Shown here one piece after another: positions 11,259 through 33,178 of a stretch of DNA of 33,362 bases (position 1 is the stretch's first letter; every line of letters starts with the position of its first letter). The notes under the pieces were generated by a model. The model was not told where the DNA came from and searched no databases. It worked only from the letters and a program-made list of their open reading frames with translations. Source of the DNA: Saccoglossus kowalevskii. Its lineage: Eukaryota > Hemichordata > Enteropneusta > Harrimaniidae. The DNA lies in NCBI RefSeq assembly GCF_000003605.2, contig NW_003126883.1, positions 1,508,645 to 1,542,006 on the forward strand. Direction: 5' to 3'. Both the position numbers and the translations under genes were made by a program.

Positions 11259-11295
11259 ATGGACTTTATTGACTCTGCGTTGTGGGCTTCTGTTG
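11259..11295 (+). CDS. Exon 1: start codon and first half of signal peptide
   Basis: The ATG has G at -3 and G at +4. It encodes [12 protein letters not shown] and then a phase-1 donor (G|GTAAGT). Joined to exon 2 it gives a textbook signal peptide. No other upstream ATG exon joins the kringle exon as neatly, and this is why I chose this start. Confidence 0.75.
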
Positions 11296-14200
11296 GTAAG
11301 TTTGTTTTATTTATTAGTCTGGTGATATTCCATACGCATATGCGTAGCCGACATGCCTGTCAATTAGAAGAGGTGACACCGGACGGAAATACAATAGGAC
11401 AATACTTATTTCTATATACGTTATTATACTGATATGACTTATAAGTATGGGCTTTTAAAGAATAAATAAATAGCAAAACCGAAATGTGTGATTTCGGAAC
11501 GGAACATCATTCGTGGATGGATTGGAAATAGATCACGTGGATTGGAATATTTATCTCAAAATAAATCTTATTAAACTTTTCATAAACTTAAAAGCATACG
11601 AATGAATTAAGAATGAAGTGATGATCTTTCATTCTCAGTTACGTTGCTGCTGTTTGTTTATGCCGGCTTTGCCACTGGGGATGACACATCAATGATTTCT
11701 GCCATAGGTAAGATTCTTACTTCTACGATTATGGAAATACTGAGATAGTAAAGTGTTCATGAATATCTTATCATGATCGGAATTTAAACAGATTCCCAAA
11801 GTTATAAGTTTGAGAGTAACAGTTAAAATGTAATACAGGTGGAAGCGGTTTGTGTGCACATATTTTAAATTTGTTAATAGATGCGCGAAGAAAATACCAT
11901 TTTGCACATTTGCATCATTGGTCTTGATCTTGTTGATACAATTGATAGTGCATGTATTTATTTCAATATATATGTAGTTATATTTCATTTTAAATGCTGC
12001 TACATGCCGTATGTTCTAAAAGTACATGCAATTACACAGGCTATGGGATCGAGGGATATAATATCCTCCTCTATGGCAGGACAAACATGATTTCTTTGGA
12101 AAACATATGCAAATTATTAGTTTTTCATGGGAAGCTAACAATATAGAACGGAGAACATTCACCACTCAGTGTGTTCTTTTAAATAAATGTAAAACATCAA
12201 ACATACTAGATCCGGTAACTGCAGAGATTCGAAATATATATTGTCATATAATATACATCTGTATTTGAGTATGCTACTCATAAACAATTATATTCCGTTC
12301 AAGCACAGTTTCTATATACCATGTCCCACCAGATGTGTTGCACGAAGGTTCATCATGCGTTGAGTAAGTGCGTGCTTGCAAGAATGTGCAAATGGGTGTA
12401 TGAGCGTGAGAAAACAAATGAACAACCATGTTTTGTTTAGAGTGCTACACAGAGCCCGACGGCATGGACTACAGAGGTCATGTTTCCCAAACTCAAAATA
12501 AGTTAACATGTCAGAAATGGACACACAAGTCGCCACACAGTCACTACCACACTCCAGAAAACTTCCCACACACTGGACTAGGAGATCATAACTATTGCCG
12601 CAACCCAGACTACGGCGAAGACGTGGTGAGTGTCTACCACGGGCCTTGGTGTTACACGGAAGATATAAACACGCGATGGGATTACTGTGATGTGGGCGAG
12701 CGTCAACAGCACTGTGTTCGAGGTGAGTAGCTTTAAAGGGTAGCATGCTACAAATCTTATACAGTCTTTTAGTATTTGTTACATGTATTCGAAACACAAC
12801 TATTTTTAGAAACCACCTCACATGTCTTACCGGAATTACCGTTCTCAAATTGGGTGTCACCTACGTCCAACCAAGACAATGTAGCGGACTTAAACGCTAA
12901 ATGTGACTGAATTATATTTCAGATGTATGCGTACAAGTTGACCCATGTCTTAATGGCGGCACCTGCGTCGACGAAGGCGAAGACTTTCGTTGTAACTGTA
13001 GTCCAGGTTTTCTAGGAAGATTTTGTAACTTTCGTAAGTTTGGTTTTTTTTTTAAAACAATTGTTGTGGGTTAGGCAATAGTGAATGACACTTTTGTATC
13101 ACTTGGCCTATTTTTAAACAGGGTCCGACTGTGCATATGCTTCACCCAACCACATAAACCGTATTTGTAATTTCTATTTTTGGGACTACGTGGTAGAAAC
13201 ATATGTATGGCCCCCGCATTATAGCAGTTTAATGCCCTGTCATGAACTTTAACAACGATTTCTTATAATTCGCGCCCGTTAATCAATGCACTATGATCGG
13301 TGCCTCCGATCCTCCCATAGACTCTGCTTCTCAAAAAGTACGGGTCGAACCGTTCTCGCTGTTTCACTTCACGGTTCTGGTGAAACAACCACTGTGTAAA
13401 CAGTAATCTGTAGTCATTATTTGCATCAATAAACTTGTGCTTCAATGCTTATTCTTATTAACTTAATGATTGGTTGGAGAGCCGAGTTGCGCTTCTTATT
13501 AAACATGCTTAATTATATTATTTTACTTTTACAGCTAATGTTTTTCAAGCACAGTTGTCTGGAACAATGGAAGACTTTGGAGACGCCCAACAACTGTGTG
13601 ATTCGATGGACGCGGATATAGCAAACTATATTCAGTTGGATAGATCATGGAGCGATGGACTGGACACATGTGAATGCGGCTGGCTTGTCGACAGCTCAGC
13701 TCGCGTAGCTGTACACACACTCTCGGATAGATGCTCGTTCGACTTTGAAGGAATTCACGTCTGCGGTACTTATCCATCTGCACAGGTTATGTTGGTGTAC
13801 TGTTTTCCACGTCTGAATGAAGGTTGGTAGAGCTCGATATTTAATTCATATACTTAGAATGGTTTGTTTAAAGGTTAAATGTAGTCTAAATGTGAAACCG
13901 AATCCAGTGTCATGGTATGCATAACAATGTTTTATCAATATGAAATCATAGAAACATTGCGACAAAACATAATTCGATGCTTATATCGTTGAACAATGGT
14001 TACAATTGTATGTGTGACACATTTTGCTGAAATATTTGAAGAGATATATCCTATCACGTTATGGCCTTCTCCATGCTATCAATCCGTGAATAAGAAAAAC
14101 ACCCTAATATTGTGATATAAAATACAGAGAGGGCCTTTGTGGGGCTACTCTGTATTCTGGAGCTGAGAGCGAATCTTCAATATAGTTTCAATAATAGATG

Positions 14201-17200
14201 TCTCTGGTTGTGTGCTTATCTGATAAGTTTTCACCTTTCAGCTCGTCCGCTGTCACCGGGTGGGGATCGTTTGGTGAAAGTATATCACCACAACAGTGGC
14301 AGTGCAAGAAAGGAAATATACCGGTAACAAATACAATAAATAAAAAAAACACTATATAAGGTTTTCTTCATTTTAATAAATAACAAGTCATTGTTGATGC
14401 CACAGTCCCCGTCCAATATTTTGTGATCTGACATATCAATTTGATGCCGATGAAGTCATTGAGATTAAATTGAAAGCATTAATAGGTAATGGATTTAAAA
14501 AAAAATATGATTGAGTGTTTTTACACAGAATTGGACGTTGGACAGTCATATTGAATCAAATTACAAAAATAATGTTTATGTTGATGTATCTATTGGTATA
14601 CTGTCTTTGTACACAATTTAAACAGAACTGTTCATTGCATTCAAGAGAAAGTAGCATTGGTATTATGGAAAACAAAATGGCCGCCAGTCGGCCATGTTTG
14701 TTCGAATCACAAACAAAAAATGACGTGCACCTACAACCAAATATGTATGATCATCTTACCAACTTTGATGCAAATCGGCCCAGTCATCTCCGAGAAACTG
14801 TTGCGGACACGTTTAAGTATCAGAAATGACAAATTTTACATCCAAAATGACCGCGAGATATAGCTCCGGACGTACGGAACGAATCCAAATTAATAGTTCC
14901 CGTTTTCGTACTTCGGCCGAACGGGGACTCAATAGTACGGGATAAATAGTCACTAGTACAATTTAAACACGTGCTCTGAGTTCAGCGAGTATCGGCAGCT
15001 GTACTGCTATCTGCTGCCACTTGTGGCACCGGTACAACCGGAGCATTTCGGGCAGTGAGCCTCAGTGGTGCATGTTGATCAGCAGGGATTATTCCACAGC
15101 ATATTATGATTATTCTGCATATGTAACCCTGTATAGGGTACAGCTCACGGAAGTCAGGAATCAACATCACAGGATGTTACAGCATCAAGTCAGGTCACCT
15201 CCGTGACTGAAGTTTTTTACCTATGTTGCAACTTAAATACTACAACTAAACCATGGCCACGCAAACAATAAAATGTATTCAACGAAATGATTGTTTATCT
15301 CGAAATAGCGGACAAATCAGTAAATATAGAATAGTAGAATGAACCACTTTTTATTTAAGCTCTACCAATTTAAAACAGGAGACTGGGGTCAATGATGTAA
15401 TATCTATTGTCATTGCCACAACACCGGGCTCAGCACATTCCAATGTATTTCACAATCACCATGCCACTGTCTGCGACATGCCAGTATGCCACAGTGGAGA
15501 CAGAATGTATGTATATCAAATTCTGCTGACAACACAATCCAGTGACTATATCAGCAGTCTCAAAATAAACATGTGCAATGGGTTGTTGCAAAGTATCCAA
15601 ACATGTGTGCTTTTCATTCACACAGCAAGGGCTCTGTTTTCTAAAAAGTACTTTTCACTTACAATTTATGTCACAATATACATTTTGAATCAGCATATAT
15701 TCGCTTCCAGGTGTAAAGTGGAGAGGCGACTGGCGTTGTGGCACTGCACTGGCATCGGGTGCAGCCGAAGCCATATGTGATCCTGACGGGCAAAGTCCCT
15801 GCTGTTCTTCCGTTGGATGGTGTGGATATACTAGTGCTCACTGTGACTGTGATGAGTGCTTCGATTCTTCCACTGTCGTGGGTACGTACTTTGTGTTTGG
15901 ATTTCGCCAGGTAACCTTTGAAACGAGCTGATAAAGTATTCACAGATTTTATTCAAATATACGACCATTCTGATCGATTACGGATTTATTTCAATGAATG
16001 ATAGTCGTATTGAAAATTCAATGTAATAACAAGTGAATTACCTAGAGGTAATAACGATGTGTTACGATGTTACAACAAAGGAAACGTTGTATATATATAC
16101 CTATTATCACCAATGTGTATTCGACCATTGTCTTATCTCAGTCATTCTATTTTGACAATTGCATTTAACCTTATTACTAATATTCTAGAACAAATACAAG
16201 AGAAACGTGGTTGGATATCACACCCTAATCTGGGCAGTTACCCGCGAAATATGAATCGACATTGGATTGTAACAGTAAGAAAAGGTAAATAACTTGTATA
16301 GACAAACCTTCAAAATGTTTACAGTACTATGAATGGTGAATTCAATTGTATATTCTACCTCCGAAATCAGTACAAAATCATCACAACTGATTGTACAAAA
16401 TATGCCATGAGATAATTCATAATTGTTTTGTCCCATTTTACTAGGTATGAGGATAGCAGTAATGTTTAAAAAGTTTCATCTTCAACGATCATGTATTAGT
16501 GTTAAAGATACATGTTTTATGGATTATGTAGACATCCATGACGGCGCCGTTACAAACCACACTAGAATTTTCCATTACTGCGGGGACCAACTACCACCCA
16601 AGGTGAGCTTTTCATTCTTACTGAAGATTCAAGGACCATGTTCGATGGTACGTGACCATCAATTTACAGGGAAGACTCGCTTACAGAAATACTGTACAGC
16701 GTGGTATTTGTTTCTATCATTCTGTATCATCGCTCGATATACATATATAAGGTTGTCGCAAATGATCATTTCCACAGATGCATAGCATCACAAGGTCTTA
16801 GTGTGTCATTATTAAAGATTGGAGTAGACATAAACTGTCTATTCCTAAACAATCGCAAAATCAATTTACAGATTTTCATGATAAAACAAGTATTGCTTGT
16901 TTAATGCCTTTTGACATTTTTTTTATTTCGACCAAATTCATTCCCACTACATCCATACATATGTGTATTGGTGTATGACAAATTGTTTCGTATTGTCCAC
17001 TGTGAAGTAGCTAATATGCACTAAATTGCAGCAAATGTATTAACAAATAAATAACAATTGAGTTTACTATTGCAACAACCACTTATAGTAGAACCATCCG
17101 GATTATTACTTCCACAGGAATATATTTTCAGTTCGCAGAATGAAATATCAATAATCTTTCACAGTGATGCTGAAATAACAGGTCGTGGGTTTTCACTATA

Positions 17201-20200
17201 CTACGAGGAATATGGTAAGTACGATGTTAAAAGAGCGTAAATATATATTCTCAAATGTGAGTGACATTTATTGTCATTATTATTTACTTGCATTTGTGCT
17301 CATATCGAGGAAGTCGTAGATGAGTTACCTGTGGTATTACGTTACGTAAGTTCTTAATAATGTCTTTGAGAGGAAAACACGTTTACTGTCTGCTTGTCGT
17401 ATCTTTAGTTGCGTTGAGTGTGTCTCCTAGTTATGTCGTAGATTAAATCTTTCTGTCAGCTGAAATGACAGAAACAACACAAGTGCGCTGAATATAACTA
17501 TGCTCGATTAATGAGACTTTCGTCTATGTATTAATTGTTGCGTCTACACAGTGCAATTGATGACACATCGCATACATACTATTGCGTTCACATGTATTTA
17601 TGCGGAATGAATACAGGGAATACTGATCAATCAAAATATTATTGAGTTCCGTTGCCTCTTCAAGGTTTATCAGCGTGTCAACGTTCGATTGGTTACAACG
17701 CCTTACCCAACTCAATGACCACCAATATTCCACTGAGTAATGAAGTCACCTTTATTGACAAGAATCTCCAGATGTCTTGCTCGGGGCGTGTGGTTGCATG
17801 GTATTTTGAGAATGATCAGACGAGTACTTCTGCTGTGCGTCTTGGAATCTATCGACATCAGGACGGAGACACATACGTGCTAATTGGACAAAATGTTATT
17901 AGTTTTCCTTATCTAACAGTAGGGGAACACTTGGTTAATGTCTCTGAAAACGAACAGATTAGCTTTGAAAAAGGCGATTACATCGGTGAGGACTGTGTAA
18001 AGGATTGTAATTATTGTAAAAAGAATTGTATAATTCCATTGTGTAATTAATTAATTATTAACTTGTAGATACAAACGTAGATACGAATGTGAATATATAT
18101 ATCGTAAACGAATAAGTGACTGGGTGATAATTATAAAGTTAGAATATGTCAGCACTGTAACAAATGTATATGAAATAACGTCTATTATAGGTTGGTATTG
18201 TGATACGATTTGTCCATTTTTCACTGCAATGCGTGACACTTGTGTGGACGGTCTTAATATAGTACATACTGACTCACTAAGCGATATAAATTCAACTGTA
18301 ATAAAAGCATCCAGTGTGCTGAATACGTCTTTGTCCATGGCTTTGGCTGCTCATATAGCATCGAATGGTAATTATAAACTTTCATATTTGTTACAACTGA
18401 CATAAACTGAGCTTTCTGTTGATGTAATCAATTTGACATAGATAAAAATAAAAAAAAAATTATGACAGTAAAATTAAAATTAGCTGGCCCATTCAAGGCA
18501 CAGATCAAATCATTTGATAGAGAGAATGTATACAATCTAAATCATATCCCAGCTACTTTTGTTTTTTTCAGTTTGTCAAAGTGACGAGTCGAATCTCGAA
18601 TTGGATAGAAACGTGGCCATTCACGTGGATTGCATGAGTTCATTTGCATCGATTAATCACCCAGGTCAATACTATCCAAATGATTACTACTCCTGGGACA
18701 TACGTGTACCAGAAGGAGACGTTGTTGGCATCTCATTCGTTGAGTTTGAGTTGGAAAACCGAACGCCCACAGGACAATGCCTTGACTATGTGCGACTAAA
18801 AGAAGGTATATGACTATAGTAATAAAATCATTTCTCCATAATGTATGTAATATAGCAGTGTGAAACTGTGTTTATATCTCCATATACTGTGTAATAACAA
18901 CCTCTGCAATCTGATTGGTCCATGCAAGCAGACTGAACTTTTTATATCGTCATGACTGACTATCACGCAATACACCAATATCTTACGATATTAGTGGTTT
19001 TATACAATATTTCTTGAATTATTCTTAAGAACTACATTAATTCAAACAAGAAAACATTCGGAAAAGCTGACATTTCAACTAATATGGCCCTGCATTTGTA
19101 TTTATTGGATTCTTACTATATCTTCAAATGTTGTTTTTATGACAACCAGATCTACAACTCAACCAACATTCAATTGAACTACAACTCTACCAACATTCAA
19201 CATGAATTGGTCACTGCAACAACATCAACCTCTTCTGAAAATTAAATCCCAAAGTTGTTATTTCCATGGTAAATCTGCCCATATATTTATCAAAATGTAA
19301 TTGGTTGAAGGGCAACCAATCTTAGAAATTGTAATACTTACATTTTAAATAATTTTGGCAGTGGTAATAATTCTGATATTTTCAGACGTTGACTATAACT
19401 CTTGTTTGACATAAAGCCGCACATTTTGGAGACATCATCTCAAACTACTTTAACGTTAACTACTCTGAACACAAAAATATTTTTCACCATTTTTCTTTTC
19501 TCCATTTCTCTCTCGCCAATTTCATGCAGAGACACTCATGAGATTTGCCCTATGGTCTCGGTCTTCGTTTATACCAATTATATTGCTGTATTGAATAACT
19601 TATTCGTGCCGACGTTATCGTAACGAACGCGTAATACTCAAAAACGTCTAGCTATTTTTAATAGTTACATGTATTTAGGACTACGATTACCAAATATTAT
19701 CTTCTATATAGCGTAATACTTTGATTGTATATTGATTATCTTGTTATTTGCTTTGCTAGTCATATCATCATGTTTTAGAATATATCAAGTTTAAGAATAT
19801 ATCATATTATATATGTGATTGAAAGTAGTTTTCATGATTCAAAATTGTTTCTGCATAACCTTTACAAATGTGTACGAATTTAGGAAAAATAGACAGTAAT
19901 TGTGATCACATTTGATTTAAAAGAAAATAAAACACAATTTAAACTTTACTTTATTTTTATTTTTTTTCATTATTGAGAGTCAATTAAGATGCGTTGTGTT
20001 ATATCGTGTACGTTGACATAATAGATAAATACATGCACGAAAATCGTATCAAAAACATCACTTAGTATATTGACTGTTTAATTCCATAGGAGCTAATGGT
20101 ACTACTACTATAATAGGAGATGACATTTGTGGTAATGATAATATTCCTGCCGCAACGTCATTTGGAAATGCATTAACAGTGGAATTTTCAACAAATGGTA

Positions 20201-22293
20201 TGAACAATTATCATGGATTTGTAGCAGAGATTATGAGCTGTGGTAAGTTCCACTATTAATTAACCCAAGCAGACGCTCCATGGTTATCGTATATGTTCAT
20301 GGGATAATTTCCCTTGATGTTTTCTTCATCGAGCTCAAATGTGTTATCATAATACATTTATCAATTTTGTGGTTGTCGCCGACCAGCAAAGTGATATAAA
20401 AAAACTACTAAAATGTAATACTAATGAAAAATCATGATTTGAATGCATCTTTGTTGATGTTATTATTTAGCCCGAACACTGCCAAACGTTACTATTGCTC
20501 TTGTCGACACCGGGCATTATTTATTGTTTATTAAACAAACGTGGTTAACGACCATACTAACTATTCATTGTATATTAATAGGATGTGAATGTGATATGTA
20601 TGGTTCTAGTGGCAACATTCAATCTTCAGTCACCAATTCCAACAGAAGAGTCGACAAAAGTGGAATGGTTACCTGTACATGGAACATTACTGTTCCCAAT
20701 GACCACGGAATAGAATTGAATATTGCTCAAAGCCAGTTACGTAATAGTTCAAATGATGGTGGCAACTGCGAAAACAGTCTAGAAATCCTAAATCAACATT
20801 CGAAAATGATAGCGAAGATCTGTTCGCCGGATGAGCTTATTTCAAAATCATTGATCTCAATATCTACAAGTCAGACTATTATCAATATGCAGATGAAGGA
20901 TGACGTCACAAAACTGATTGCTACATTTCAAGCAGTTCCCAAGACTCAAAGTTAGAAAAAGGTCTTGCAAAATCAGTATCGAATATATTGTTATCATCCT
21001 TTTTGGTAGATTTTATGCAATATGGACGAAGTCAAGTACTTTGAATATTTTTGTTCGATACTCTATACTGTATACTGAATCAGTACAGAAAGAGTTTTCG
21101 TTACTCACAATTGTATCCGTTAAATTGAAAATCTAAGTCACCAACACACGTGTGCATAGTTTGCTATTGTACGTACCAAAACAAAACGTATTATAGAAAT
21201 GTTATTGTTTCATGGAATGAACATTCAGAGGTCTGTTTACAAGAACAATGTCATAAATTATCATAAATCATAGCCCAATATCATCTGTATACATTCGTAA
21301 CAGCAATACTGACAATTGTATGTTGTCGTTCATCTGTTCATAATTAGATTGCAATATGATATTGACCAACGAATCGGGAGAGATACAATCGCCGAACTAT
21401 CCAGGGCATTATCCACATAATGTCAGGTGTTCATGGTCAATAGATGCAGGAATAGGACACGCCATTGTTGTCCGATTCATAGAGCTGGCACTGGAAACTG
21501 CTGACCACAGCGAATGCAGTGACCAACTATTGCTGTATGAAGGTTACATTGTATCCACACATCCGATTGTGGAACCTCTGTGCTCCTTCAGCGAAAACTC
21601 AACTCGTGACGTGGTGTTGAGTGAACAATGGTTGTCTCTGGTATTCACGAGTGATTCCACAATAGCTGGTACAGGTTTCTTCTTGGAATACCAACGCATT
21701 GCACGTGAGTACAACATGTAACTACTGACAGTGTCCATCTACTAGATCCTAAGACATCGACCGTTGTTTGAAACACGTGTAGATGATAATGTTAACAGCA
21801 TGAGATTTTACTCTGTATGTATAGGTGCATGTCCACCAGGCTACTCCATGGGGTATGGAGTGACAAACAAAGTTGGTATAGCGCACGTTTCAAATGTCAG
21901 CAATACCAGCATTCAGACATCATAGTATCTGATACCGAAGAGGAGCACTTGTGGCTGAGGGCATTGTTTGAAGAATCCGTCTCCACTGACAAACTATGGA
22001 TAGGTATGCCCTGTTTAATTCTTTACATAGATACAAGATTTGGTACACCGATGGAATGTGCAACGATTATTGCAATTGTTGACGAATATTGTTTCATATT
22101 AAAATGCAAAACTCTATTGCGGCACATTTCCGTTGAAATTTATGTTAAATTGTTGAATAATAGTACATCTTTGTCAAATACTGTAAAGCCATGGCTACTA
22201 ACAGTGAGGGCGACAGCGTGTTCAATACATGGTGGGCGACGCCTGCCCACGTTTGGACCTTATAACACCTGACCGGGAATTAGTGAAATTATA

Positions 22294-22343
<50 letters not shown>

Positions 22344-22422
22344 NNNNNNNNNNNNNNNNNNNNNNNNNNNNNNNNNNNNNNNNNNNNNNNNNNNNNNNNN
22401 NNNNNNNNNNNNNNNNNNNNNN

Positions 22423-22453
<31 letters not shown>

Positions 22454-24809: not shown

Positions 24810-24876
<67 letters not shown>

Positions 24877-27800
24877 CGTATAAATATGTATTACTTAGTG
24901 CATTATTCGTTAGTTAATAACTGCAATCGTATATAAATGAAATTTAACTACATTTATATACCTTGAGCATAACCTCGTGTATTTGTCTTGCAGTTAACAG
25001 TGACTATGGTACGTGCGAAGCTAATATAACTGTACTGAGTGCCCTGATTGGAATGCTGCAGTCAATGAATTACCCATTACAATTCTCTAAGTATATGTCG
25101 TGCTATTGGTTGATTGACGTTCCTGTTGGTCTTGCAATCAGGTATTGTCAACCACAAAAGACATTACTCGTTGGATGTTGTAAAAGTATGTATATATCTG
25201 TAGAAGAGCCAGTGTGAAGTTACTTACAAGATTGTGCCTGACTCGCTACCTAACCGACGTCTTTCAGTCAGACCAATCAAAGAACAGCTTTGACTGTGTT
25301 TTTTTCAACGTATCAATTCTTGCCTTGTATGCTTCGACTCAACTTCTGTGATGAGTTGTAACCTTATTCACATCAAGCTACCTACTACACACTCTTCAAC
25401 TGATTTACTGATTGCATACATTATGTATTTCAGACTATGGTTTATATACCTGAATTTTGGCACATATATTTCCGAGTGTGTATCTAGCCTGACAACATAC
25501 GACGATGGTAAATACCTTATAAACACATACTGTGGAAGCGTCAACAACGCATATGTTAGATCTACCTCTCATCGTTTGCTTTTGGAGTTCAATTCAGGAG
25601 ATGTGGTGGAAGATGGTGCTGGGATTCTGGCCGTATATAACAGCACTGGTAGGAACCATTTCTCATGTCAACCAATTGGTAGTCAGTCTTATTTGCAAGC
25701 GTAACAAAACGTGCGCATATATGCATCACGTTAGCATGAGACTGCCAAACCAAGTTTACTTCATCATGACACTATTTTACATAAATCCATTTCATATATT
25801 TTCAAATAATATTTTCAAAATTACAGAATGTCCGTTTGGTGAATGTTTTTCTGATTGTGGCAGTCCCAGTCATTTCATTGACACCCCAGGACAGTTTGCA
25901 TCAATGAACTTTCACATGGACGAGTTGTTCTATCGCCCATACAGTCGGTGTCAGTGGACAATCATCGTCAGCGATGACAAGTTTGTTCAATTAGAATTTC
26001 CCGTATTTGATCTACCATCTACCAATCTCAGTGCATGCCGTGATTACGTGGAAGTCGATATTAGTGATATTGGCGATATTATGAATTTCGTTCGTTACTG
26101 TGGTGTGGATGCACCACGCGTATCATCTCTCAGCAATCGCATGAGAGTCACGTTTTCTACTTTCGAATACAGCCAAGGAGGAGGATTCCAAGCTTATTAT
26201 GAAGAAGCAGGTATGACCATGTATTTTATAATATACATGCTTTATATACATTTTATCCATGTAATGTCAGGATACTGTGTGCCTGCGTGGACTAATAAAC
26301 CGATGCTGGGACTCACTCCTAACTAAAATCACTTAGAAATAGCTATTGTGTTAGCTACCTCAGAAGGAAACTTATTATTTGAGGAGGCAATCAAACTGAC
26401 ACTTCTACGTTGATTGTGGAGTATATTGGTTGACACATATATTTTTTTCTAATATTCTACTTAGACTGTCCTGGATTTGGTATGGGAGTACGAGAATGTT
26501 CTCGGTACCTTCATCTGAATGAAAGCTGTGGATATGTCCAATCAAGCAACTATCCTAATCCCTACCCTGATAACAGCTACTGTGACTGGAACATTGTCGC
26601 ACCTGAGGGGAAATTAGTACTACTAGAGTTTCTTCATCTCGACATCGACGGTGGTTCGAACTGTTGTGACAATTACGTGAAGATCTATGACGCCAACATG
26701 GCAGATCCAAACCATCTAGTGGATACATTGTGTAACAGTAAAGTTTACACAACGTTTATTTCCAAATTCAATAGCCTGTATGTTGAATTTGTTGGTGCGC
26801 ATGCGGACAATGGTATTGGATTCTTTGCCAGGTTCGAAGCGTACAGCGTCGTCCCTATTGTTAATTTGAGTAAACCAACCGACCAAGGTACGTGTTGCTC
26901 TTAAACTATGTTCCATATTGCTAAGCTACATTACATACCTAGTAACAAATAATTTTCATAACTATGTGTATCAGATCCAGACGAGACATTTTCTTTACAG
27001 ATTACGCATGTCTTCACGGGTGGTATCTGTTTAATGCCTACTGTTATCGCTTCTTTGTCGCGAACTCAACTTTGAGTTGGACTAAAGCTGAAGGCAGATG
27101 CACGAACATGAACTCCCACCTTGTTAGTATACTAAATTATGAAGAAATGGTGTTTGTTCACTACAGACTGACAAACACGTGGTGGACTGGAAAAATGGAG
27201 ACGTCTATTGGTATTTTCATTGTTTCAATAGATCTGTGTTACATTATTTTCCGGGCTATTGCTTACATTGTTGAGAATGTATTATATCAATATTATATAT
27301 CAATATGTATATAAAACCGATAAACAGTACCTGTGTATGAGCGTTTGCGAACACATACTGTGCCAGGCTTTTGAATATATTAATATTATACGATACCCTC
27401 CACGAAACTTATACATGCAGTGTACGTGCAAAAATGAATAAAACTGTTCCTTTTCCATATACTATTTACCATACTTTTTAGGATTATACAAAACGACAGA
27501 TGTTAGATACCAATGGACTGACGGGAGCCCCATGTCGTACACCGATTGGTAAGCTGTATTAACCTTCCCCCTTTACTGAAGTTTATTTACTTCTGTTACT
27601 CAGTAATTATAAGTTGAATCGTTCATATTTCATACAAGGTATTATTTTATAGGGCAGAAGAAGAAGGAACTGATGGGACATATATATTCCAGCCGGATGG
27701 AGGAATGTTTGAGCGATGTACGATGATCAATTTAGCTAATTTACATTCAACCAATCATTGGCACGATATCCCATGTGCGTTGGACACCATTGCGCAATAT

Positions 27801-30800
27801 ATATGTAAACAACCAGCAGTGTATACAGGTATGAGCCTTGTTCTAGTTACATTTTAGTATTGTACATTAACGTCCGAAAGAATAACAATTTGTACATTAT
27901 TTTATTATTATTTATTTATTATTTTTTGACAGGGGAAAGAATAATCGAAATTATTGTCGATCCTGTATGGAATCATCTTGGTAAGTACGAAAATATTACA
28001 TTAAATTGTTCCAGTATTTTCTAAAAACATAAACAAATAACCGAACTGTTGTTAACATTGAACAGCGTTCTATAGTCACACGTGTCTGCTACTATTTCGG
28101 TATTTCAGGAACTCAAACGTGTGATACGTTTCATAAATGTGATGATGATTCATGTCTCCATTATGCATTTGTATGTGATGGTGCGGTAGATTGCCCAGAT
28201 GGTAGTGACGAAAGAATATGTGGTACGTACATAATTAAATGTTCAGAATTTTAGAGGACAGTTTCAATAGGGTCAACCCATAAGGCCATTGTAATCCCAT
28301 TTTATCTGCAAAGAGTATATTATTTCATCATAATTATGTTGTTTCACACAGATAGTGGGTGTTCGAAGGATAGTTATCATTGCTCAAATGGTGGGTGCGT
28401 ATCGATGTCATTTTACTGCGACTTCATCGACCAGTGCGGAGACAATTCTGACGAACAGCATTGTGGTATGATGCGTAATTGATACTTGTCATGGCATTGA
28501 CATCAATAAATAACAGTTATAAAATATTAACGTAACATAGTATACACTGTATAGCAAAAACATTCAACGACTGTATTCATGATTGTGTAAAATAATTCAT
28601 ACAATATAGATTTGAATATACGTGTAAATGGTGATAGGAATGTATTTCTAATGCTTTTATATATTGATACTCAGTGTATCGCAATTGCACAGAAGACCAA
28701 TATACGTGCTCCAATGGTCAGTGTATATCGAAAGAAAAACGATGCAATGTTGTTAAAGATTGTTTGGATGGTAGTGATGAAACACTGTGTGGTAGGTATA
28801 TGAACCGATGCAGTAGGTTGTGTATTACTCGTGGGGTGGGGGGGGGGGGTGACTTGCAAAAATACTGAGTAGCTGGTTGTTTGAATCCCCTAATCCTTTA
28901 TCAGACAGAAATAAACTCAAATTGCCCTTTTCATACAAACTGGGGGTATTTGACACCCCCTTCCAGACAGTTAGCATTAATGATACCAAGGGAAAAGCTA
29001 GTAGACCTCCGGGAATGGAAAAAATCAGCTTCATTCTTCTGATTGTTGGATCACTCAAGCTCCAAGGACAGTGTATAGAAAAAGTTTACCTCTTTTCAGA
29101 CAGAAATAATGAAAAAAAGTATACCCCTTTTCAGACAGACAGGGTAATATAACATACCCTTTTCAGACAGAAGTGGTGAATTTGTGACCCCTTTTGGCGG
29201 CACATATACATACAGTACTTCAATGTCAGTACCCCCGGGGGTATTACTTTAAAAAATTGTTTTTGTCGTTGATGTACCACAAGTTTGTTCCTTATGTTTC
29301 TGTTCGCTATAACGGGACGCAGTCACATACGTTTGGTGATATTTCATTTCAATATTTCAAACTCAGTGAGTAATACTTAATAGACAAAATTGCATATAAA
29401 ATTGAGAAAATTAATATTTTGGTCCATTTGTTTAGAATCTTGTGATGGATTCCAATGTTATGATGGACAGTGTATACCTGATCACGCCAAGTGTGATTTC
29501 ACTTACGATTGCCAAGGCAACAGAAAAGAAGACGAGTATGGTTGTGGTGAGTATTTAGTCCCATCCTATCTTACTTGCCCATCACGCAAAATCAACATAT
29601 TCCCCCTTAACAACCTGTGTCGCAATGTATAGAATTTTAACAATGTTTCGTGCTGGAGATATGAACTGCGATTGTGGATAGATAATGTAATTGAATGCAT
29701 AACCATGTACTGTGATGTAAGGATAAGTGAAGTATGATATGAATTGTGACAGCGATACACAAACTCAATCAAAAACTAAAACACTGCTTCTCCAGAACAT
29801 ACTACATACATAATACGCAAGTGAGGTAGAAAGAAAAACAGCCTGATACACTTTCTACTTCATTCGAAAACTTACTTACTTTGCATTTCTGTGCTTGGAT
29901 CCATCATACATGCACGCTTGATAATAATGATGAAAATACTACTTGTCGATAGATCTGGGAGTGATAGGTGGCTGTGACAATGACGAGTTTCAGTGCAATA
30001 ATTACCAATGTACAAATCAACGAAATATTTGTCTGTATGACTTTGACGAGTATGGTTATCCAGTTGGTTGTCGTGACGTGTCACGCTTGAAGTCATGTGG
30101 TGAGTTGTTCAGATTTATAAATTATATTTCAATTAAGCACAATGATGTAGCTAAATATGCAATTTCCAGTGATACAGCAGTTTATGTTAGATTTATACCT
30201 ATATATATATGTCTAAACTTATTTATTGTTTCTATATTTTAGATACCTTTAAATGTACACGTGGAATGTTCAAATGTCCCGACAGTTATTGTATATCGGT
30301 ACATAGAGTATGCGATGATGTCTACGACTGTCCTGATGGTATTGATGAGCATGGCTGTGGTGAGTTTGTGAATATTTACGGCAATACAGATACATTATAT
30401 TAATTGAAATGGTAATTCAATAGTTACCCATATGTTCGTCACTTTACAATTAAAAAAACGGTCTTAAAGAAATATTATTTCATTTATTTTAGCTCAAAAA
30501 CAAACTGTATGCGTTGCCCTGGTTTTACTTTTCTCCATATACTCCTTTGTTACAACGTACCAAGTAATAACATGTGTATTTAAAAGGCATCTAGCACTAT
30601 GTTTGCAACGTTGTGTTAATTTTCGGGAACTGTCATCAAACTATATCTGTCTACCTTAACTAAATCATATTGTATTAAATTCAATCGTAAATCTGAAAAT
30701 AAAGGTCTTATAAAGTGTTTATAATTGTTCAGTCATAAAATTAAATACTTTTTCAACATTCCTAATTCATTATGGGATTCAGATGAATGTTTAAAAAGAT

Positions 30801-33178
30801 GTAGTTTTGGTGTGTTAAACTGTGATTAAATTGTTAAAACATAATCTTCACAAGGAATATTTGGGTTTACATAAAAAAGTGCTTATTAGAAAGCATCATG
30901 TGAAGTTAAGGTCTCTCATATGTATACGAGATTAGCCTATTTATATTTCTCTATATTATCATTCGCTCTTTCCCCATCTGTAATATACGCCCGAAGTATA
31001 ATAGATTATTTTCCGTTCACTGCGAGAATCACGCGTTATGCATGAAATCGAACGTGAAAACAGGACAAAGAAAGATCGTAGTGGCGTCAAACATCACGTG
31101 GGATTCAACAAACGTATTTTGGGGGACATTTCCATGCTTAATAATGTGCTATCTACGTTTGATGATAGGCTATTTCGATTTAGTAAGGGTATTCGGAACA
31201 GTATTCCTTTGTCGAAGATCGGCCGGTCGATGTGAGCTACGAAATAAAGAAATTCGAGCTCAAAATCAAATCGTTCCATTTTTGCGGCAGACGTTCGACG
31301 CGCGTTTTTCATGCAACTCGCGAGATCTCGCAATTGTATGGAAAATCACCTATTAATTCATATGATTTACAGCAATTCCAGGCACTGATTTGACGCTGAA
31401 ATAGTACTAGATATAGATAACATTCTACAATAGGTTACACACTTTGTTTTCACATTTACATAAGTTGTAACTAGAAATATAAACATCGACTGCAAATCAG
31501 AGGAATGATTGATAGATACTGCCCACAATGTTTTCTATTTTTGCTACAAAGTCCGATGTCCAGTCACTTTTGGTTAGTCATCGTGTTGATTGCATTTGTC
31601 CAAGTTGTTTAAACATCGCGATGGAGAAGCAAGGAGTCGAAAACCAGTTGAAGTGAGAACAAGAGTTGTCGATTTGTATTTTCGTGGGCTGTTATTTGCT
31701 GAGATCGGAGATCGAAGTGGTGTTTCAAAGCAGACAGCTTTTAATAATAATAACTTTATTACACTACTAAAAACCTTCAGAGGGTTTTTGTATGGTAAGG
31801 AACATAAATACAAAGAAATACAAATACCATAAAATATCGTCTATATATAATATCGTCAAACGGTTTGCTACCGCCGAGAGTATACTGCCAGGAAAGCGTA
31901 ATAGCGACCAATCCGCGACTAAAAATCTAATTGTAATATAAAACGTAGAGACCGAGCATTTACGAACGGGAAATTCGACAAAAAATACCCGAAAACGGTG
32001 TATACGGCGGCAACCCTCCCCGGACGTGTGATCGTGTGTTTCTAGTGATAAGCTGCGATTATTTGGTGGCACATCAACTTTTTAGTTCTCATCGTCGAGA
32101 ACTAATAATCGAATAACACCCATTCTACTTATGTATTCAATTTCATTCTTGATATACTGGACGAAGTCTTCATAGGACATTTGTTGCAGGCGGCTTTTAG
32201 TTATATAGATCGGCGTAATACGGATATTTCCATAGTAGGAATGCTGGTAATGCGTTTTGATCAACAATTCTGCCATGATCGGCCGGTCAGCTGGTTCTGT
32301 AAAATAACTCTAACGTTCTTTACAGTGCCACCACTTTATGCGCGCCTCTCACTGAAATAACATGTGACGCAAATTGTAGTAGGAAACTAAGTTGAGAGCC
32401 TCGATTGTTTATTGGAGGAGAAATTCAAAACTAATGTACCTTCCGGTGCGCTTCAAATTCCAGACATGCTGTCTGCATATTTGTAACAACTTCTGTAATT
32501 GTGAAAACAAAGTGTGTAACCTATTGTAGTAAGTTATCAACATCTAGCACTGCTTCGTCGTCAAATAAGTGCCTGGAATTGCTGTAATTAATTAAACGCT
32601 TGGACCTACTTTAAAATCAGTTATTCCATTTCCTCAATTAAAATATATTGTTTCCTAATAAAGTCTGGCATCTTCAACAACTTTGTTTTACTTCACGCAA
32701 ATACAATAATTGGTTATCCATGGTTTTTTTCTTCAGATAATTACACATGTGTCAATGGCATACGGTGTCATGGTGTGCGAAACTGCATTGAACAACATCA
32801 TCTATGTGATGGAGTTAGGCAGTGTCCTGGGGGAGACGATGAAATGTTGTGTAGTAAGTAATAATGAATTAATATTGAATAATATTGTTTGTTCGTTCGT
32901 TCGTTCTTTTGACCCTCTTTTCAATGTATAAATGCAATGCATGCTCGCAATGTTGTATTATAATATTTCGTCATACTTTATTTGGAATGTGTATTTTTAA
33001 ATAGGTTGTGAATATGTCTCAAAAGTCTCACTGTGTTTAATAATGACCGTTCAATCCTTTCACATCTTTCAGATATAACATGCCCCGACATTTGCTCGTG
33101 CAATGGTTTGTATGTTGACTGCGCAGACTCAAACATCACAACTTTACCAATTACTCTCGACCATGACACACGAAAATT
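11259..33178 (+). CDS. Large mosaic receptor ectodomain gene, 5' part (36 exons, continues beyond window)
   Basis: Joining the exons listed below gives a secreted or membrane-anchored protein of about 2,050 residues up to the window end. The order is signal peptide, kringle, EGF, Link, hevein-like module, CUB1, unnamed domain, CUB2-4, C-type lectin 1, EGF, short segment, CUB5-7, C-type lectin 2, linker, LDLa x7, LRR N-terminal cap. Every exon is bounded by AG and GT, and frames join throughout except for one frameshift in exon 17. Almost all introns are phase 1. LDLa repeats followed by LRRs are known from GRL101-type and relaxin-type receptors, so an LRR-bearing GPCR is my best guess; the transmembrane part lies outside the window. 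The domain set would face the extracellular side and bind glycans, lipoproteins or matrix. A split into two genes is not excluded, since I cannot see transcripts. Confidence 0.8.
11639..11707 (+). CDS. Exon 2: hydrophobic core of signal peptide
   Basis: A good acceptor (CATTCTCAG|TT) joins in phase 1. It reads [18 protein letters not shown] followed by MISAI. The leucine-rich core and small residues suggest cleavage near FATG|DD. A phase-1 donor (G|GTAAGA) leads to the kringle exon. Confidence 0.8.
12441..12722 (+). CDS. Exon 3: kringle domain
   Basis: The exon (94 codons, phase 1-1) encodes one whole kringle. Visible landmarks are [51 protein letters not shown] and YCDVG, with the last cysteine in QHC. 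All six kringle cysteines are present. The segment between NPD and GPWCY is several residues longer than usual and disrupts the DxD pair that binds lysine in plasminogen kringles, so classical lysine binding is doubtful. Kringles bind protein or glycan ligands and have no catalytic role of their own. Confidence 0.93.
12923..13033 (+). CDS. Exon 4: EGF-like domain
   Basis: The exon (37 codons, phase 1-1) carries a complete six-cysteine EGF module with [12 protein letters not shown] and GFLGRFC. It follows the kringle directly, as in several shuffled extracellular proteins. It lacks the D-x-N/D-E/Q calcium motif before the first cysteine. Confidence 0.93.
13034..13534. other. Intron 4, no feature seen
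   Basis: This 501-base intron has canonical ends. Nothing recognisable lies inside. Confidence 0.6.
13535..13822 (+). CDS. Exon 5: Link (hyaluronan-binding type) domain
   Basis: The exon (96 codons, phase 1-1) encodes a single Link domain: [20 protein letters not shown], then [11 protein letters not shown], then DRCSF, then MLVYCF at the end. The signature (F..A...C, DG.D.C..GWL, and a final VYCF) is clear. Two extra cysteines (in CECGW and HVC) may form an additional bridge. Link domains bind hyaluronan in vertebrate proteins; whether this one does cannot be told from sequence. The donor is GTTGGT, weaker than the others in the gene. Confidence 0.9.
14242..14323 (+). CDS. Possible exon 6: short linker, optional
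   Basis: Between a good acceptor (TTTTCACCTTTCAG) and a GTAACA donor lies an open segment, [17 protein letters not shown] and on to EIY. It enters in phase 1 but leaves in phase 2. It fits the next exon only if that exon uses an internal acceptor (after GTAAAGTGGAG, about 15723). If it is skipped, exon 5 joins exon 7 in frame. I am unsure it is used. Confidence 0.35.
14640..14945 (+). repeat. SINE-like interspersed repeat in intron
   Basis: The block starts near AAACAAAATGGCCGCCAGTC and CGGCCATGTTTG, which form a small hairpin. It runs through GATCATCTTACCAACTTTGATG, CGGCCCAGTCATCTCCGAGAAA and CGGACGTACGGA. It ends at CCCGTTTTCGTACTTCGG and CCGAACGGGGACT, a second hairpin. I recognise the pattern of a paired ATGGCCGCC/CGGCCAT start and a GTCCCCGTTTTC/GAAAACGGGGAC end from interspersed repeats of several marine invertebrates. 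The 3' hairpin is diverged here. Family name not assigned. Confidence 0.55.
14946..15710. other. Rest of intron before exon 7
   Basis: An open stretch after an AG at 15378 (15379-15542) begins [17 protein letters not shown]. It has plausible splice ends but no phase that joins its neighbours and no recognisable domain. Nothing else is evident. Confidence 0.4.
15711..15881 (+). CDS. Exon 7: hevein-like, chitin-binding-type cysteine-rich module
   Basis: The exon (57 codons, phase 1-1) reads KWRGDWRCG, then [14 protein letters not shown], then [17 protein letters not shown]. The CDP, PCCS, GWCG and HCDC spacing matches the type 1 chitin-binding (hevein-like) fold, in the invertebrate form that starts WRxDxRCG. 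Hevein domains bind N-acetylglucosamine polymers, but this side branch is poorly characterised, so the ligand is open. Confidence 0.8.
15882..16188. other. Intron 7, no feature seen
   Basis: About 307 bases with canonical ends; nothing recognisable. Confidence 0.6.
16189..16284 (+). CDS. Exon 8: CUB1, first part
   Basis: 32 codons, phase 1-1. [20 protein letters not shown] and then IVTVRKG match the opening beta strands of a CUB domain (G.I.SPN.P..YP....C.W.I). The usual cysteines before G and before W are absent, so the first CUB disulphide is missing. Confidence 0.85.
16445..16602 (+). CDS. Exon 9: CUB1, middle part
   Basis: This exon enters in phase 1 and leaves in phase 0. It reads [16 protein letters not shown], then [11 protein letters not shown], then [12 protein letters not shown]. 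The C.DYV.I.DG and YCG motifs are the CUB core with its second disulphide. Its phase-0 donor is one of the few non-phase-1 junctions in the gene. Confidence 0.88.
16603..17117. other. Intron 9, no feature seen
   Basis: About 515 AT-rich bases. An earlier AG at 17089-17090 would put a stop in frame, so the acceptor at 17117 is preferred. Confidence 0.6.
17118..17214 (+). CDS. Exon 10: CUB1, last part
   Basis: Entering in phase 0 after TTCCACAG, it reads [20 protein letters not shown] and then [13 protein letters not shown], the closing strands of a CUB domain (I.F.SD....GF...Y). It returns to phase 1 at G|GTAAGT. Confidence 0.9.
17215..17664. other. Intron 10, no feature seen
   Basis: About 450 bases; nothing recognisable. 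Confidence 0.6.
17665..17985 (+). CDS. Exon 11: unnamed extracellular domain, first part
   Basis: 107 codons, phase 1-1. Landmarks are [15 protein letters not shown], then [11 protein letters not shown], then [20 protein letters not shown], then [18 protein letters not shown]. Alternating hydrophobic residues suggest a beta sandwich. The CSGxVxxWxF, GIYR...YxLIGxN and IxFxxGDxIG pattern looks like a module that recurs in uncharacterised invertebrate extracellular proteins, but I know no accepted name or function. It sits between CUB1 and CUB2, so it is very likely extracellular. Confidence 0.75.
18191..18367 (+). CDS. Exon 12: unnamed domain, second part
   Basis: 59 codons, phase 1-1. It begins [17 protein letters not shown] and ends [11 protein letters not shown]. 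It follows directly from the GDYIG end of exon 11, and four cysteines could pair locally (WYC, TIC, DTC and one from exon 11). The function is unknown. Confidence 0.7.
18572..18805 (+). CDS. Exon 13: CUB2, first part
   Basis: 78 codons, phase 1-1. [20 protein letters not shown] is followed by [20 protein letters not shown] and [11 protein letters not shown]. This matches the CUB N-terminal half with its C.DYV.L motif. Confidence 0.88.
18806..20089. other. Intron 13, short local duplication only
   Basis: A 1.28-kb AT-rich intron. ACAACTC(A/T)ACCAACATTCAA occurs twice near 19150-19200. No gene or transposon is recognised. Confidence 0.5.
20090..20242 (+). CDS. Exon 14: CUB2, second part
   Basis: 51 codons, phase 1-1. 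[19 protein letters not shown] and then [19 protein letters not shown] give the ICG and closing V.F.T.....GF.A strands of a CUB domain. Together with exon 13 it completes CUB2. Confidence 0.87.
20582..20950 (+). CDS. Exon 15: CUB3, degenerate
   Basis: 123 codons, phase 1-1. Reading [19 protein letters not shown], then [19 protein letters not shown], then [11 protein letters not shown], then IAKICSP, then LIATFQA, it follows the CUB outline with four main cysteines but has lost SPNYP, DYV and GF. There are several N-x-S/T sites. The donor (CAAA|GTTAGA) is weak but is the only one before the in-frame stop at 20953 that keeps phase 1. Confidence 0.75.
21348..21704 (+). CDS. Exon 16: CUB4
   Basis: 119 codons, phase 1-1, a complete CUB in one exon: [19 protein letters not shown], then [20 protein letters not shown], then [11 protein letters not shown], then LCSFSE, then [19 protein letters not shown]. 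Four cysteines are at the expected places, making it a canonical CUB. Confidence 0.95.
21825..22003 (+). CDS. Exon 17: C-type lectin domain 1, first part, with internal frameshift
   Basis: The exon enters in phase 1 as [11 protein letters not shown], the usual CTLD opening. The frame then changes between about 21857 and 21885 to [13 protein letters not shown], then [17 protein letters not shown], then KLWIG, which are clear CTLD strands. The exon is 179 nt where phase 1-1 needs a multiple of three, consistent with one lost base (or two gained). Either an assembly or sequencing error or a true disabling mutation explains this; the rest of the gene is open, so error is more likely. The second N-terminal cysteine typical of long-form CTLDs is not seen. 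Confidence 0.8.
22292..22452. repeat. (TA)n microsatellite with 79-base assembly gap
   Basis: Alternating TA on both sides of 79 N bases (22344-22422) lies inside the intron between the two halves of C-type lectin 1. The true length is unknown. Apparent open stretches reading YIYIYI are artefacts. Confidence 0.97.
22469..22699 (+). CDS. Exon 18: C-type lectin domain 1, second part
   Basis: 77 codons, phase 1-1. [14 protein letters not shown], then [12 protein letters not shown], then [10 protein letters not shown], then [14 protein letters not shown] match G.TD...EG.W.W, W..GEP, EDC and YIC of CTLDs. The sugar tripeptide is EPG, not EPN or QPD, and the WND motif before the third cysteine is replaced by LASLYC. 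Classical calcium-dependent sugar binding is therefore doubtful. Confidence 0.92.
22700..24363. other. Intron 18 carrying a dispersed repeat
   Basis: This 1.66-kb intron holds the repeat copy at 23322-23760 and otherwise unremarkable sequence. A short exon could be hidden here, because the joint codon to the next EGF is unusual. Confidence 0.5.
23322..23760 (+). repeat. Dispersed repeat, copy 1
   Basis: This block aligns by eye with 28853-29240. Shared phrases include GTAGCTGGTTGTTTGAA, TCAGACAGAAATAAACTCAA, AGAAATAATGAAAAAAAG followed by ATACCCCTTTTCA, and GAAGTGGTGAATTTG. Both copies end in TACCCCCGGGG. No terminal repeats or protein are evident. Confidence 0.85.
24364..24489 (+). CDS. Exon 19: calcium-binding-type EGF domain
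   Basis: 42 codons, phase 1-1. [15 protein letters not shown], then [13 protein letters not shown] and RKCV give six cysteines in the EGF-CA pattern. Joined to exon 18 the first residue is His, where DVNEC is normal; a preceding exon ending in G would restore Asp. This may mean a missed exon. Confidence 0.9.
24652..24738 (+). CDS. Exon 20: short two-cysteine segment
   Basis: 29 codons, phase 1-1: [18 protein letters not shown] followed by [12 protein letters not shown]. It resembles the first strand of a CTLD (C..GW.....CY.F), but the next exon is CUB, so it may be a lectin remnant or a linker. Confidence 0.6.
24807..24874 (+). repeat. (AAT)n microsatellite
   Basis: An uninterrupted trinucleotide run within the intron after exon 20. 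The open Asn run it creates is not coding. Confidence 0.97.
24994..25141 (+). CDS. Exon 21: CUB5, first part
   Basis: This exon enters in phase 1 and leaves in phase 2. [20 protein letters not shown], then [20 protein letters not shown] and LAIR form the CUB N-terminal half. The phase-2 donor (AG|GTATTG) joins exon 22 to complete an Arg codon. Confidence 0.88.
25434..25648 (+). CDS. Exon 22: CUB5, second part
   Basis: Entering in phase 2 it reads [19 protein letters not shown], then TYDDGKY, then INTYCGSVN, then LLLEFNSGD. This completes the CUB fold with the second cysteine pair, and it leaves in phase 1. Confidence 0.88.
25827..26210 (+). CDS. Exon 23: CUB6
   Basis: 128 codons, phase 1-1, a full [22 protein letters not shown], then ACRDYVEVD, then [13 protein letters not shown], then [21 protein letters not shown] short cysteine-rich lead ([12 protein letters not shown]) precedes it. 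Confidence 0.94.
26465..26887 (+). CDS. Exon 24: CUB7
   Basis: 141 codons, phase 1-1, the best-preserved [23 protein letters not shown], then [20 protein letters not shown], then [10 protein letters not shown], then TLCNS, then [21 protein letters not shown] linker of about 15 residues rich in Val, Pro and Thr leads to the lectin. Confidence 0.95.
27001..27210 (+). CDS. Exon 25: C-type lectin domain 2, first part
   Basis: 70 codons, phase 1-1. [18 protein letters not shown], then [20 protein letters not shown], then WWTGKME are the opening strands of a long-form CTLD with its extra N-terminal cysteine pair. Confidence 0.94.
27482..27548 (+). CDS. Exon 26: C-type lectin domain 2, middle part
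   Basis: 22 codons, phase 1 in, phase 2 out. [16 protein letters not shown] matches the W.DGSP..Y..W loop; the Trp codon is split by the intron. Confidence 0.9.
27653..27828 (+). CDS. Exon 27: C-type lectin domain 2, last part
   Basis: Phase 2 in, phase 1 out. [19 protein letters not shown], then IPCAL, then AQYICKQ give the final CTLD cysteines and a WHD in place of WND. No EPN or QPD is present, so glycan binding by the classical site is unlikely. Confidence 0.92.
27933..27980 (+). CDS. Exon 28: 16-residue linker
   Basis: A small phase 1-1 exon reading [17 protein letters not shown] sits between good splice sites. It separates the lectin from the LDLa row and has no domain. Confidence 0.7.
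28109..28222 (+). CDS. Exon 29: LDLa module 1
   Basis: 38 codons, phase 1-1, six cysteines. [20 protein letters not shown] is followed by [16 protein letters not shown]. The acidic calcium motif DxxDCxDGSDE is intact, so this module should fold around calcium. Confidence 0.96.
28352..28465 (+). CDS. Exon 30: LDLa module 2
   Basis: 38 codons, phase 1-1. [20 protein letters not shown], then [17 protein letters not shown]. Six cysteines and the SDE triad are kept; Gln replaces the usual Asp before the fifth cysteine. Confidence 0.95.
28675..28791 (+). CDS. Exon 31: LDLa module 3
   Basis: 39 codons, phase 1-1. [20 protein letters not shown], then [17 protein letters not shown]. Canonical except for Asn in place of the first Asp after the fourth cysteine. 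Confidence 0.95.
28792..29435. other. Intron 31 carrying a dispersed repeat
   Basis: It starts with a G run near 28837-28850, then the repeat copy at 28853-29240; nothing else is seen. Confidence 0.6.
28853..29240 (+). repeat. Dispersed repeat, copy 2
   Basis: Same family and orientation as 23322-23760. It contains the TCAGACAGAAATAAACTCAA block, several CCCTTTTCAGACAGA phrases and the TACCCCCGGGG end. Confidence 0.85.
29436..29546 (+). CDS. Exon 32: LDLa module 4
   Basis: 37 codons, phase 1-1. [19 protein letters not shown], then [18 protein letters not shown]. Six cysteines are present, but the DGSDE core reads GNRKEDE, so calcium coordination may be weaker. Confidence 0.92.
29547..29952. 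other. Intron 32, no feature seen
   Basis: About 406 bases with nothing recognisable. Confidence 0.6.
29953..30099 (+). CDS. Exon 33: LDLa module 5, expanded and divergent
   Basis: 49 codons, phase 1-1. [20 protein letters not shown], then [14 protein letters not shown], then RLKSCG. The six cysteines remain, but the calcium-binding loop is lengthened and lacks DGSDE. A second AG at 29974-29975 could give a shorter exon in the same phase. Confidence 0.85.
30243..30359 (+). CDS. Exon 34: LDLa module 6
   Basis: 39 codons, phase 1-1. [20 protein letters not shown], then [17 protein letters not shown]. Near canonical; Ile replaces Ser in the DGSDE motif while the acidic ligands stay. Confidence 0.95.
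30360..31367. other. Long intron 34, left part
   Basis: AT-rich; nothing recognised to about 31.0 kb. A less AT-rich stretch at 31030-31356 is open for 104 codons but shows no motif. GATCGGCCGGTC near 31218 recurs at 32278 inside the transposon. Confidence 0.5.
31590..31940 (+). pseudogene. Tc1/mariner-type transposase N-terminal relic
   Basis: [20 protein letters not shown], then [14 protein letters not shown] (about 31635-31748) reads as a paired-type helix-turn-helix. After a roughly 100-bp insertion the frame resumes as [17 protein letters not shown] and NSDQSATKN (31849-31926), the expected next part. No DDE/D catalytic region is recognised. The gene is dead. Confidence 0.65.
31742..31848 (-). 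mobile_element. Very short retroposon 3' tail inside the transposase relic
   Basis: On the minus strand it ends GTGTAATAAAGTTATTATTATTA, the same tail as at 3935-3957. It splits the transposase frame. At about 100 bp it would be a severely 5'-truncated copy. Confidence 0.55.
32585..32736. other. Right end of intron 34
   Basis: Short AT-rich tail ending in a strong acceptor (TTTTTTTCTTCAG). Confidence 0.6.
32737..32853 (+). CDS. Exon 35: LDLa module 7
   Basis: 39 codons, phase 1-1. [20 protein letters not shown], then [16 protein letters not shown]. Six cysteines with an acidic loop; DGSDE reads GGDDE. It lies past a 2.4-kb intron but is in frame with module 6. Confidence 0.93.
33073..33178 (+). 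CDS. Exon 36: LRR N-terminal cap
   Basis: Phase 1 in, phase 2 out. [19 protein letters not shown], then [15 protein letters not shown] matches the LRRNT pattern CP..C.C....V.C....L..LP and the run into the first LRR. The phase-2 donor (TT|GTGAGT) falls where LRR exons of this receptor class are commonly split. The first LRR exon is not in the remaining 180 bases. Confidence 0.92.

Follow-up and report, generated by a model that had tools for sequence, protein, structure and literature searches.

The window analysed here is a stretch of 33,362 nucleotides from Saccoglossus kowalevskii (bases 1508645-1542006 of contig C1938, NW_003126883.1, a contig of 1,904,593 bases). Exon-by-exon Pfam analysis revealed a kringle, an EGF, a Link, a hevein-like module, seven CUB, two C-type lectin and seven LDLa modules and an LRR N-terminal cap, all on the plus strand and in the order claimed in the initial annotation. 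Two elements absent from that list were also found: an EGF/FXa-type module and an unnamed domain of about 160 residues encoded by two exons. Coordinates of all modules, together with those of a second locus described below, are listed in the table. Kringle, EGF 1, Link, CUB1, CUB2, CUB3, CUB4, CUB6, CUB7, both lectins and LDLa 1, 2, 3, 6 and 7 score over the Pfam cut-offs (21.4 bits for CUB and 24.1 bits for LDLa). The hevein-like module (cut-off 27.8 bits), both CUB5 halves, LDLa 4, LDLa 5 and the LRR cap (LRRNT, 25.8 bits) lie at the right position with scores under the cut-off; EGF 2 likewise stays under the FXa_inhibition cut-off of 33.4 bits. Splicing over the introns raises the half-modules of CUB1, CUB2 and lectin 2 to significance.

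Table. Features of the window gene and of its paralogue on contig C46, with Pfam E-values, bit scores and splice sites.
Locus	Feature	Position	Strand	Evidence and remarks
Window	Doubtful exon 1	11259..11295	+	Start codon from the initial annotation; phase-1 donor 11295, no hydrophobic stretch before it
Window	Kringle exon	12441..12722	+	Kringle 4.6e-21, 75.4 bits; phase 1-1
Window	EGF 1 exon	12923..13033	+	EGF 1.8e-8, 34.9 bits; phase 1-1
Window	Link exon	13535..13822	+	Xlink 1.5e-16, 60.9 bits
Window	Hevein-like exon, runs into CUB1	15711..15881	+	Chitin_bind_1 1.2e-4, 22.7 bits
Window	CUB1 first part	16189..16284	+	Spliced with 16445..16602: CUB 2.6e-11, 44.3 bits
Window	CUB1 second part	16445..16602	+	Donor phase 0
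Window	Unnamed domain first part	17674..17985	+	Open, phase 1-1
Window	Unnamed domain second part	18191..18367	+	Phase 1-1
Window	CUB2 first part	18572..18805	+	Spliced with 20090..20242: CUB 6.3e-16, 59.1 bits
Window	CUB2 second part	20090..20242	+	Spliced CUB as for first part
Window	CUB3 exon	20582..20950	+	CUB 1e-4, 23.0 bits; weak donor, score -0.1
Window	CUB4 exon	21348..21704	+	CUB 2.4e-18, 66.9 bits
Window	C-type lectin 1 first part	21825..22003	+	One-base frame change at about 21850
Window	C-type lectin 1 second part	22469..22699	+	Spliced lectin 1: Lectin_C 6e-14, 53.1 bits, X at frame change
Window	EGF 2 (FXa_inhibition/EGF_CA type)	24364..24489	+	FXa_inhibition 1.2e-6, 29.0 bits
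Window	CUB5 first part	24994..25141	+	CUB 3.5e-4, 21.3 bits; donor uncertain
Window	CUB5 second part	25470..25648	+	CUB 0.013, 16.2 bits; start not fixed
Window	CUB6 exon	25827..26210	+	CUB 4.8e-15, 56.3 bits
Window	CUB7 exon	26465..26887	+	CUB 77.7 bits; of the window CUBs nearest to the single CUB of C46
Window	C-type lectin 2 first part	27001..27210	+	Spliced with 27658..27828: Lectin_C 6.5e-6, 27.3 bits; weak donor -0.9
Window	C-type lectin 2 second part	27658..27828	+	Contains QPDGG...HSTNHWHD
Window	Short linker exon	27933..27980	+	Acceptor 9.1, donor 5.4, phase 1-1
Window	LDLa 1 exon	28109..28222	+	6e-9
Window	LDLa 2 exon	28352..28465	+	1.7e-8
Window	LDLa 3 exon	28675..28791	+	1.4e-9
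Window	LDLa 4 exon	29436..29546	+	5.6e-4, 20.5 bits
Window	LDLa 5 exon, atypical	29953..30099	+	0.081, 13.6 bits; weak acceptor 0.6
Window	LDLa 6 exon	30243..30359	+	5.5e-9
Window	LDLa 7 exon	32737..32853	+	1.3e-5
Window	LRR N-terminal cap exon	33073..33178	+	LRRNT 1.3e-4, 21.9 bits; phase 1 in, 2 out
C46	Kringle	359485-359727	-	1.2e-8
C46	EGF		-	1e-9
C46	Link	358802-358990	-	2.1e-8
C46	F5/8 type C		-	Spliced 2e-4, below cut-off
C46	CUB (single)		-	4.8e-17
C46	C-type lectin		-	5e-5, first exon
C46	LRR exons		-	87, 72 and 72 bases, LRR-like peptides; the one Pfam-tested gave LRR_8 0.028 only
C46	7TM exon		-	7tm_1 7.7e-17

Analysis of the unnamed domain found no significant Pfam family (the best match, at 0.096, is implausible) and no PDB chain at E<=1, and its single-sequence AlphaFold model was set aside because a pLDDT of 42.7 made it unusable. 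The minus strand, scanned in three frames over 11001-33362, gave no Pfam family at E<=0.01, and neither did the plus-strand gaps 13823-15700 and 30360-32700. A short plus-strand frame (31590-31829) in the large intron that separates LDLa 6 from LDLa 7 resembles, by eye, the helix-turn-helix of a Tc1/mariner-like transposase. Upstream of the modules lie a plus-strand reverse-transcriptase-like element in fragments across several frames (424-2090), which by eye we take to be Penelope-like, and a long minisatellite (6717-8121) in which several frames read as short repeats such as CECLSCRG units.

Splice phases were examined in a blind test, in which the top-scoring site at each end of 16 single-exon modules was taken irrespective of phase; four of the 32 sites had just one candidate. 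All 16 acceptors and 14 of the 16 donors were picked at phase 1. The donor exceptions are the hevein-like exon, where the phase-0 donor at 15910 scores higher than the phase-1 donor at 15881, and the LRR cap, where the sole candidate donor is in phase 2. At CUB3 the sites picked blind are not the listed exon ends, yet they too are in phase 1. If phases are equally likely, 16 of 16 in phase 1 is expected by chance with a probability of 2.3e-8. Shuffled extracellular genes commonly consist of phase-1 modules, and hence the pattern is taken as a fit to such a gene and not as proof that the gene is one.

A single plus-strand reading path through all modules had been proposed for this locus. Order, strand and phases agree with it, and several places do not close. 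At the doubtful exon 1 the phase-1 donor precedes the hydrophobic stretch and the donors beyond that stretch are in phase 0; a search of 8000-12440 with fixed thresholds for another signal-peptide exon (ATG, hydrophobic core and phase-1 donor) found none. An exon closing CUB1 after 16602 was not located, and no acceptor was found for the second part of CUB5. In the first exon of lectin 1 the frame shifts by one base, not far from a run of 79 N (22344-22422) that sits in a TA repeat. The frame change, the end of CUB1, the CUB5 joint and the signal exon that was not found could together mark the window copy as a decayed or truncated family member that gives no working receptor. We consider this unlikely, since the remaining listed domain exons are open with consistent phases and the acidic calcium motif is retained, by eye, in five of the seven LDLa modules (LDLa 4 and LDLa 5 are atypical). 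Furthermore, the N run shows poor sequence quality nearby, and therefore an assembly error is a plausible cause of the frame change in lectin 1.

Genome-wide profile searches of the 572 Mb assembly (4830 contigs) identified 11 Link candidates, of which two, the window and a minus-strand locus on contig C46, reach E<=0.001. The C46 Link is adjoined by a kringle. Analysis of this locus revealed, within 12.5 kb of the minus strand (359741 to 347267), the order kringle-EGF-Link-F5/8C-CUB-C-type lectin-seven LDLa-LRR cap-LRR-7TM. When joined, its exons 1-7 (from the kringle to lectin exon 1, F5/8C and CUB included) form one open frame, and the joined exons are in phase 1 throughout, except for a phase-0 intron within F5/8C; several of the splice sites used are weak. 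Lectin exon 2 and LDLa exon 5 were left out of these joins, since none of their top-scoring candidate acceptors is in phase 1. The C46 LRR cap exon has sites available for entry in phase 1 and exit in phase 2, as in the window.

The seven LDLa modules of the window and the seven of C46 pair in order, which is the best of the 5040 possible orders. The odd form of window LDLa 5 recurs in the fifth LDLa of C46, and the two are each other's best score in both row and column; the call of LDLa 5 is supported by this shared atypical form. A third locus, on contig C4310, has a kringle-EGF-Link-like region and an LGR 7TM that share one strand, with the stretch between them not read through. A clear kringle-EGF-Link head is thus present at two loci, and C4310 is probably the third.

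Comparison with C46 bears on whether the window holds two or more adjacent genes, namely one for a secreted protein with kringle-EGF-Link(-CUB-lectin) and, after it, another for an LDLa-LRR receptor. Such a division would suit the 22 kb span with its long introns (e.g. 13.8-15.7 kb and 22.7-24.4 kb), the weak CUB3 donor directly ahead of an in-frame TAG, and the 41 AATAAA/ATTAAA words on the plus strand, many of which are expected in AT-rich introns. It would also suit the two C46 joints, between lectin exons 1 and 2 and between LDLa 4 and 5, at which no splice was resolved. Against this, 12.5 kb of C46 contain both a head that matches and a tail with the same LDLa-LRR-7TM order, and C4310 again combines such a head with an LGR 7TM. 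Since the C46 frame is open from the kringle to the first lectin exon, a boundary between genes could lie only within the lectin or beyond it. Separate genes are therefore judged very improbable. The LDLa pairing, the kringle-to-lectin open frame and the 7TM match uphold the single-receptor reading.

The 7TM of C46 lies in a frame of 397 amino acids that matched 7tm_1 and no further Pfam family up to E 0.1. Among solved structures, relaxin receptor 1 (RXFP1) is its best match (8.4e-28), followed by the LH, TSH and FSH receptors at about 1e-15 (LH 1.1e-15) and LGR4 (2e-5). The matching head, a 7TM nearest to RXFP1 and the LDLa modules paired in order make it very probable that the window contains most of the ectodomain of one type C (GRL101-like) LGR gene with an added adhesive N-terminal head. 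The earlier proposal of a GRL101- or relaxin-type receptor with kringle and Link ahead of LDLa and LRR is strongly supported through this paralogue. We infer that the modules belong to one transcript and that the window gene has a 7TM of its own, with its LRRs and 7TM placed past the window.

The left flank consists of 10,218 N (1498427-1508644) right up to the window start, and a run of 32,416 N (1542007-1574422) starts at the window end, which makes the LRR cap exon the last readable exon of the gene. The readable 17 kb past this run contained no LRR- or 7TM-like frame (frames >=60 residues, by eye). The first recognisable gene there is an arylsulfatase A-like gene, identified by eye on the minus strand at about 1580.9-1590.9 kb of the contig. 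The N directly after the LRR cap and this readable part would also accommodate a gene whose product lacks a 7TM and is either soluble or anchored by a single membrane pass. Such a product appears to us highly unlikely, as 32 kb leave ample room for the LRR and 7TM exons, which span about 2.8 kb in C46, and the LRR cap exon leaves in phase 2, as expected if LRR exons in phase 2 follow it as in C46.

GRL101 is a type C2 LGR that was first found in the snail Lymnaea and has bilaterian homologues. As far as the available text of the sources goes, type C2 comprises GRL101-type LGRs with multiple LDLa modules (PMC4079206, PMC11863921), and GRL101 has twelve LDLa modules and six LRRs (PMC8286064). 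The receptor proposed here would have the same plan of several LDLa modules, then LRRs, then a rhodopsin-type 7TM, the last known here from C46. At both loci the seven LDLa modules are N-terminal to the leucine-rich part, which is the LRRNT cap in the window and the cap together with LRR exons in C46, and both carry the multiple LDLa modules of type C2. In contrast, the parts of the GRL101 descriptions available place only LDLa and LRR ahead of the 7TM and mention no kringle, EGF, Link, hevein, CUB or C-type lectin. Type C1 receptors such as RXFP1 share the position of LDLa ahead of the LRRs, and RXFP1 is the best match of the C46 7TM. However, relaxin-type and related receptors have one or two LDLa modules rather than the seven found here, and the available portions mention no adhesive head for them (PMC8286064, PMC11863921). 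The core is thus nearest in plan to GRL101, and its putative placement in C2 rather than C1 is based on the number of LDLa modules.

The novelty is the adhesive head, as the LDLa-LRR-7TM core is already a known family. A kringle or Link on an LGR is not described in the available text of PMC8286064, PMC11863921, PMC6267866, PMC12716839, PMC2246102, PMC11521371 and PMC4079206. Literature searches, which covered openly available papers, gave no match for the module combination. The middle block also differs between the paralogues, with F5/8C in C46 as against hevein, CUB, lectin and the unnamed domain in the window gene.

Adhesion GPCRs, a family that carries a GPS site, were considered as the parent family and rejected, as the C46 7TM is 7tm_1 only and no GPS was found in the scanned ORFs; convergence is favoured instead. 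The available text on amphioxus Adhesion GPCRs describes kringle, C-type lectin, CUB and LDLa in front of seven helices (PMC2246102). This likeness is the nearest precedent that we met, and it belongs to another family: the amphioxus receptors are of the GPS-bearing kind, whereas an LRR and a rhodopsin/LGR-kind 7TM are found here. We give roughly even chances to the view that the loci represent a small family of relaxin/GRL101-type receptors with a common kringle-EGF-Link head and a swappable middle, which would act as matrix-anchored peptide receptors convergent with kringle- and lectin-bearing Adhesion GPCRs.

In relaxin-type receptors the peptide is bound by the LRRs and the LDLa module takes part in activation. 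In the matrix-anchored receptor proposed here, the LRR ring would bind a small disulfide-rich peptide of the insulin/relaxin kind, a ligand class that we infer, and the row of LDLa modules would couple this binding to the helix bundle, like the LDLa of relaxin receptors. The Link domain is a hyaluronan-type binder, and several of the head modules are of kinds with ligand-binding relatives. The head could hold the receptor on glycans or matrix, or concentrate ligand there, and peptide signalling might thereby depend on the local substrate. Whether the head localises signalling by binding glycan, matrix or ligand is, in our judgement, an evenly balanced matter. According to the available text, GRL101 has been argued to bind an insulin-like peptide (PMC8286064), and GRL101-type receptors are orphans for which a second IGF receptor and a chemosensor are debated (PMC8286064, PMC6267866).

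The several module kinds with ligand-binding relatives could also mean that the gene encodes an immune pattern-recognition receptor that acts through its adhesive head and has given up a peptide ligand. Lectin 2 of the window retains QPD...WHD, a motif of the C-type lectin calcium/sugar site, and its QPDGG...HSTNHWHD is shared with contig C1468. The corresponding motif in the C46 lectin is KPN...WHD, and by eye no QPD...WHD-like motif is present in window lectin 1. The genome is moreover rich in C-type lectins (at least 147 matches) and kringles (at least 86). On the other side, the C46 7TM is of the relaxin-receptor kind, and the known ligands of relaxin receptors are peptides. An immune receptor that has given up its peptide ligand is an unlikely reading. 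A role in pattern recognition is compatible with parts of the matrix-anchored receptor reading and is one of several possible roles.

If the matrix-anchored reading is true, the presence of Link, kringle and lectins on one chain would couple peptide signalling to contact with matrix or glycans, and the locus would supply defined modules for expression and testing. The head would also represent front-end domain shuffling of an LGR on a scale otherwise described, in the available part of the literature, only for Adhesion GPCRs.

Searches of the assembly also revealed features at other loci. On contig C4110, C-type lectin matches recur on both strands at a spacing of about 8 kb (minus strand at 4287, 12274, 20299, 28328 and 36318; plus strand at 7273, 15258, 23282 and 31313) and constitute a recent tandem array. 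A dense LDLa array is present at C4670:35786-41390, mostly within one open frame of 1735 residues. Contig C4830 (locus L033) is the mitochondrial contig; its COX1 reads TGA as Trp, and its COX1 and COX2 frames contain no AGA or AGG codons. COX1 lies on the strand opposite to COX2 and nad1 (both named by eye), which is an unusual arrangement.
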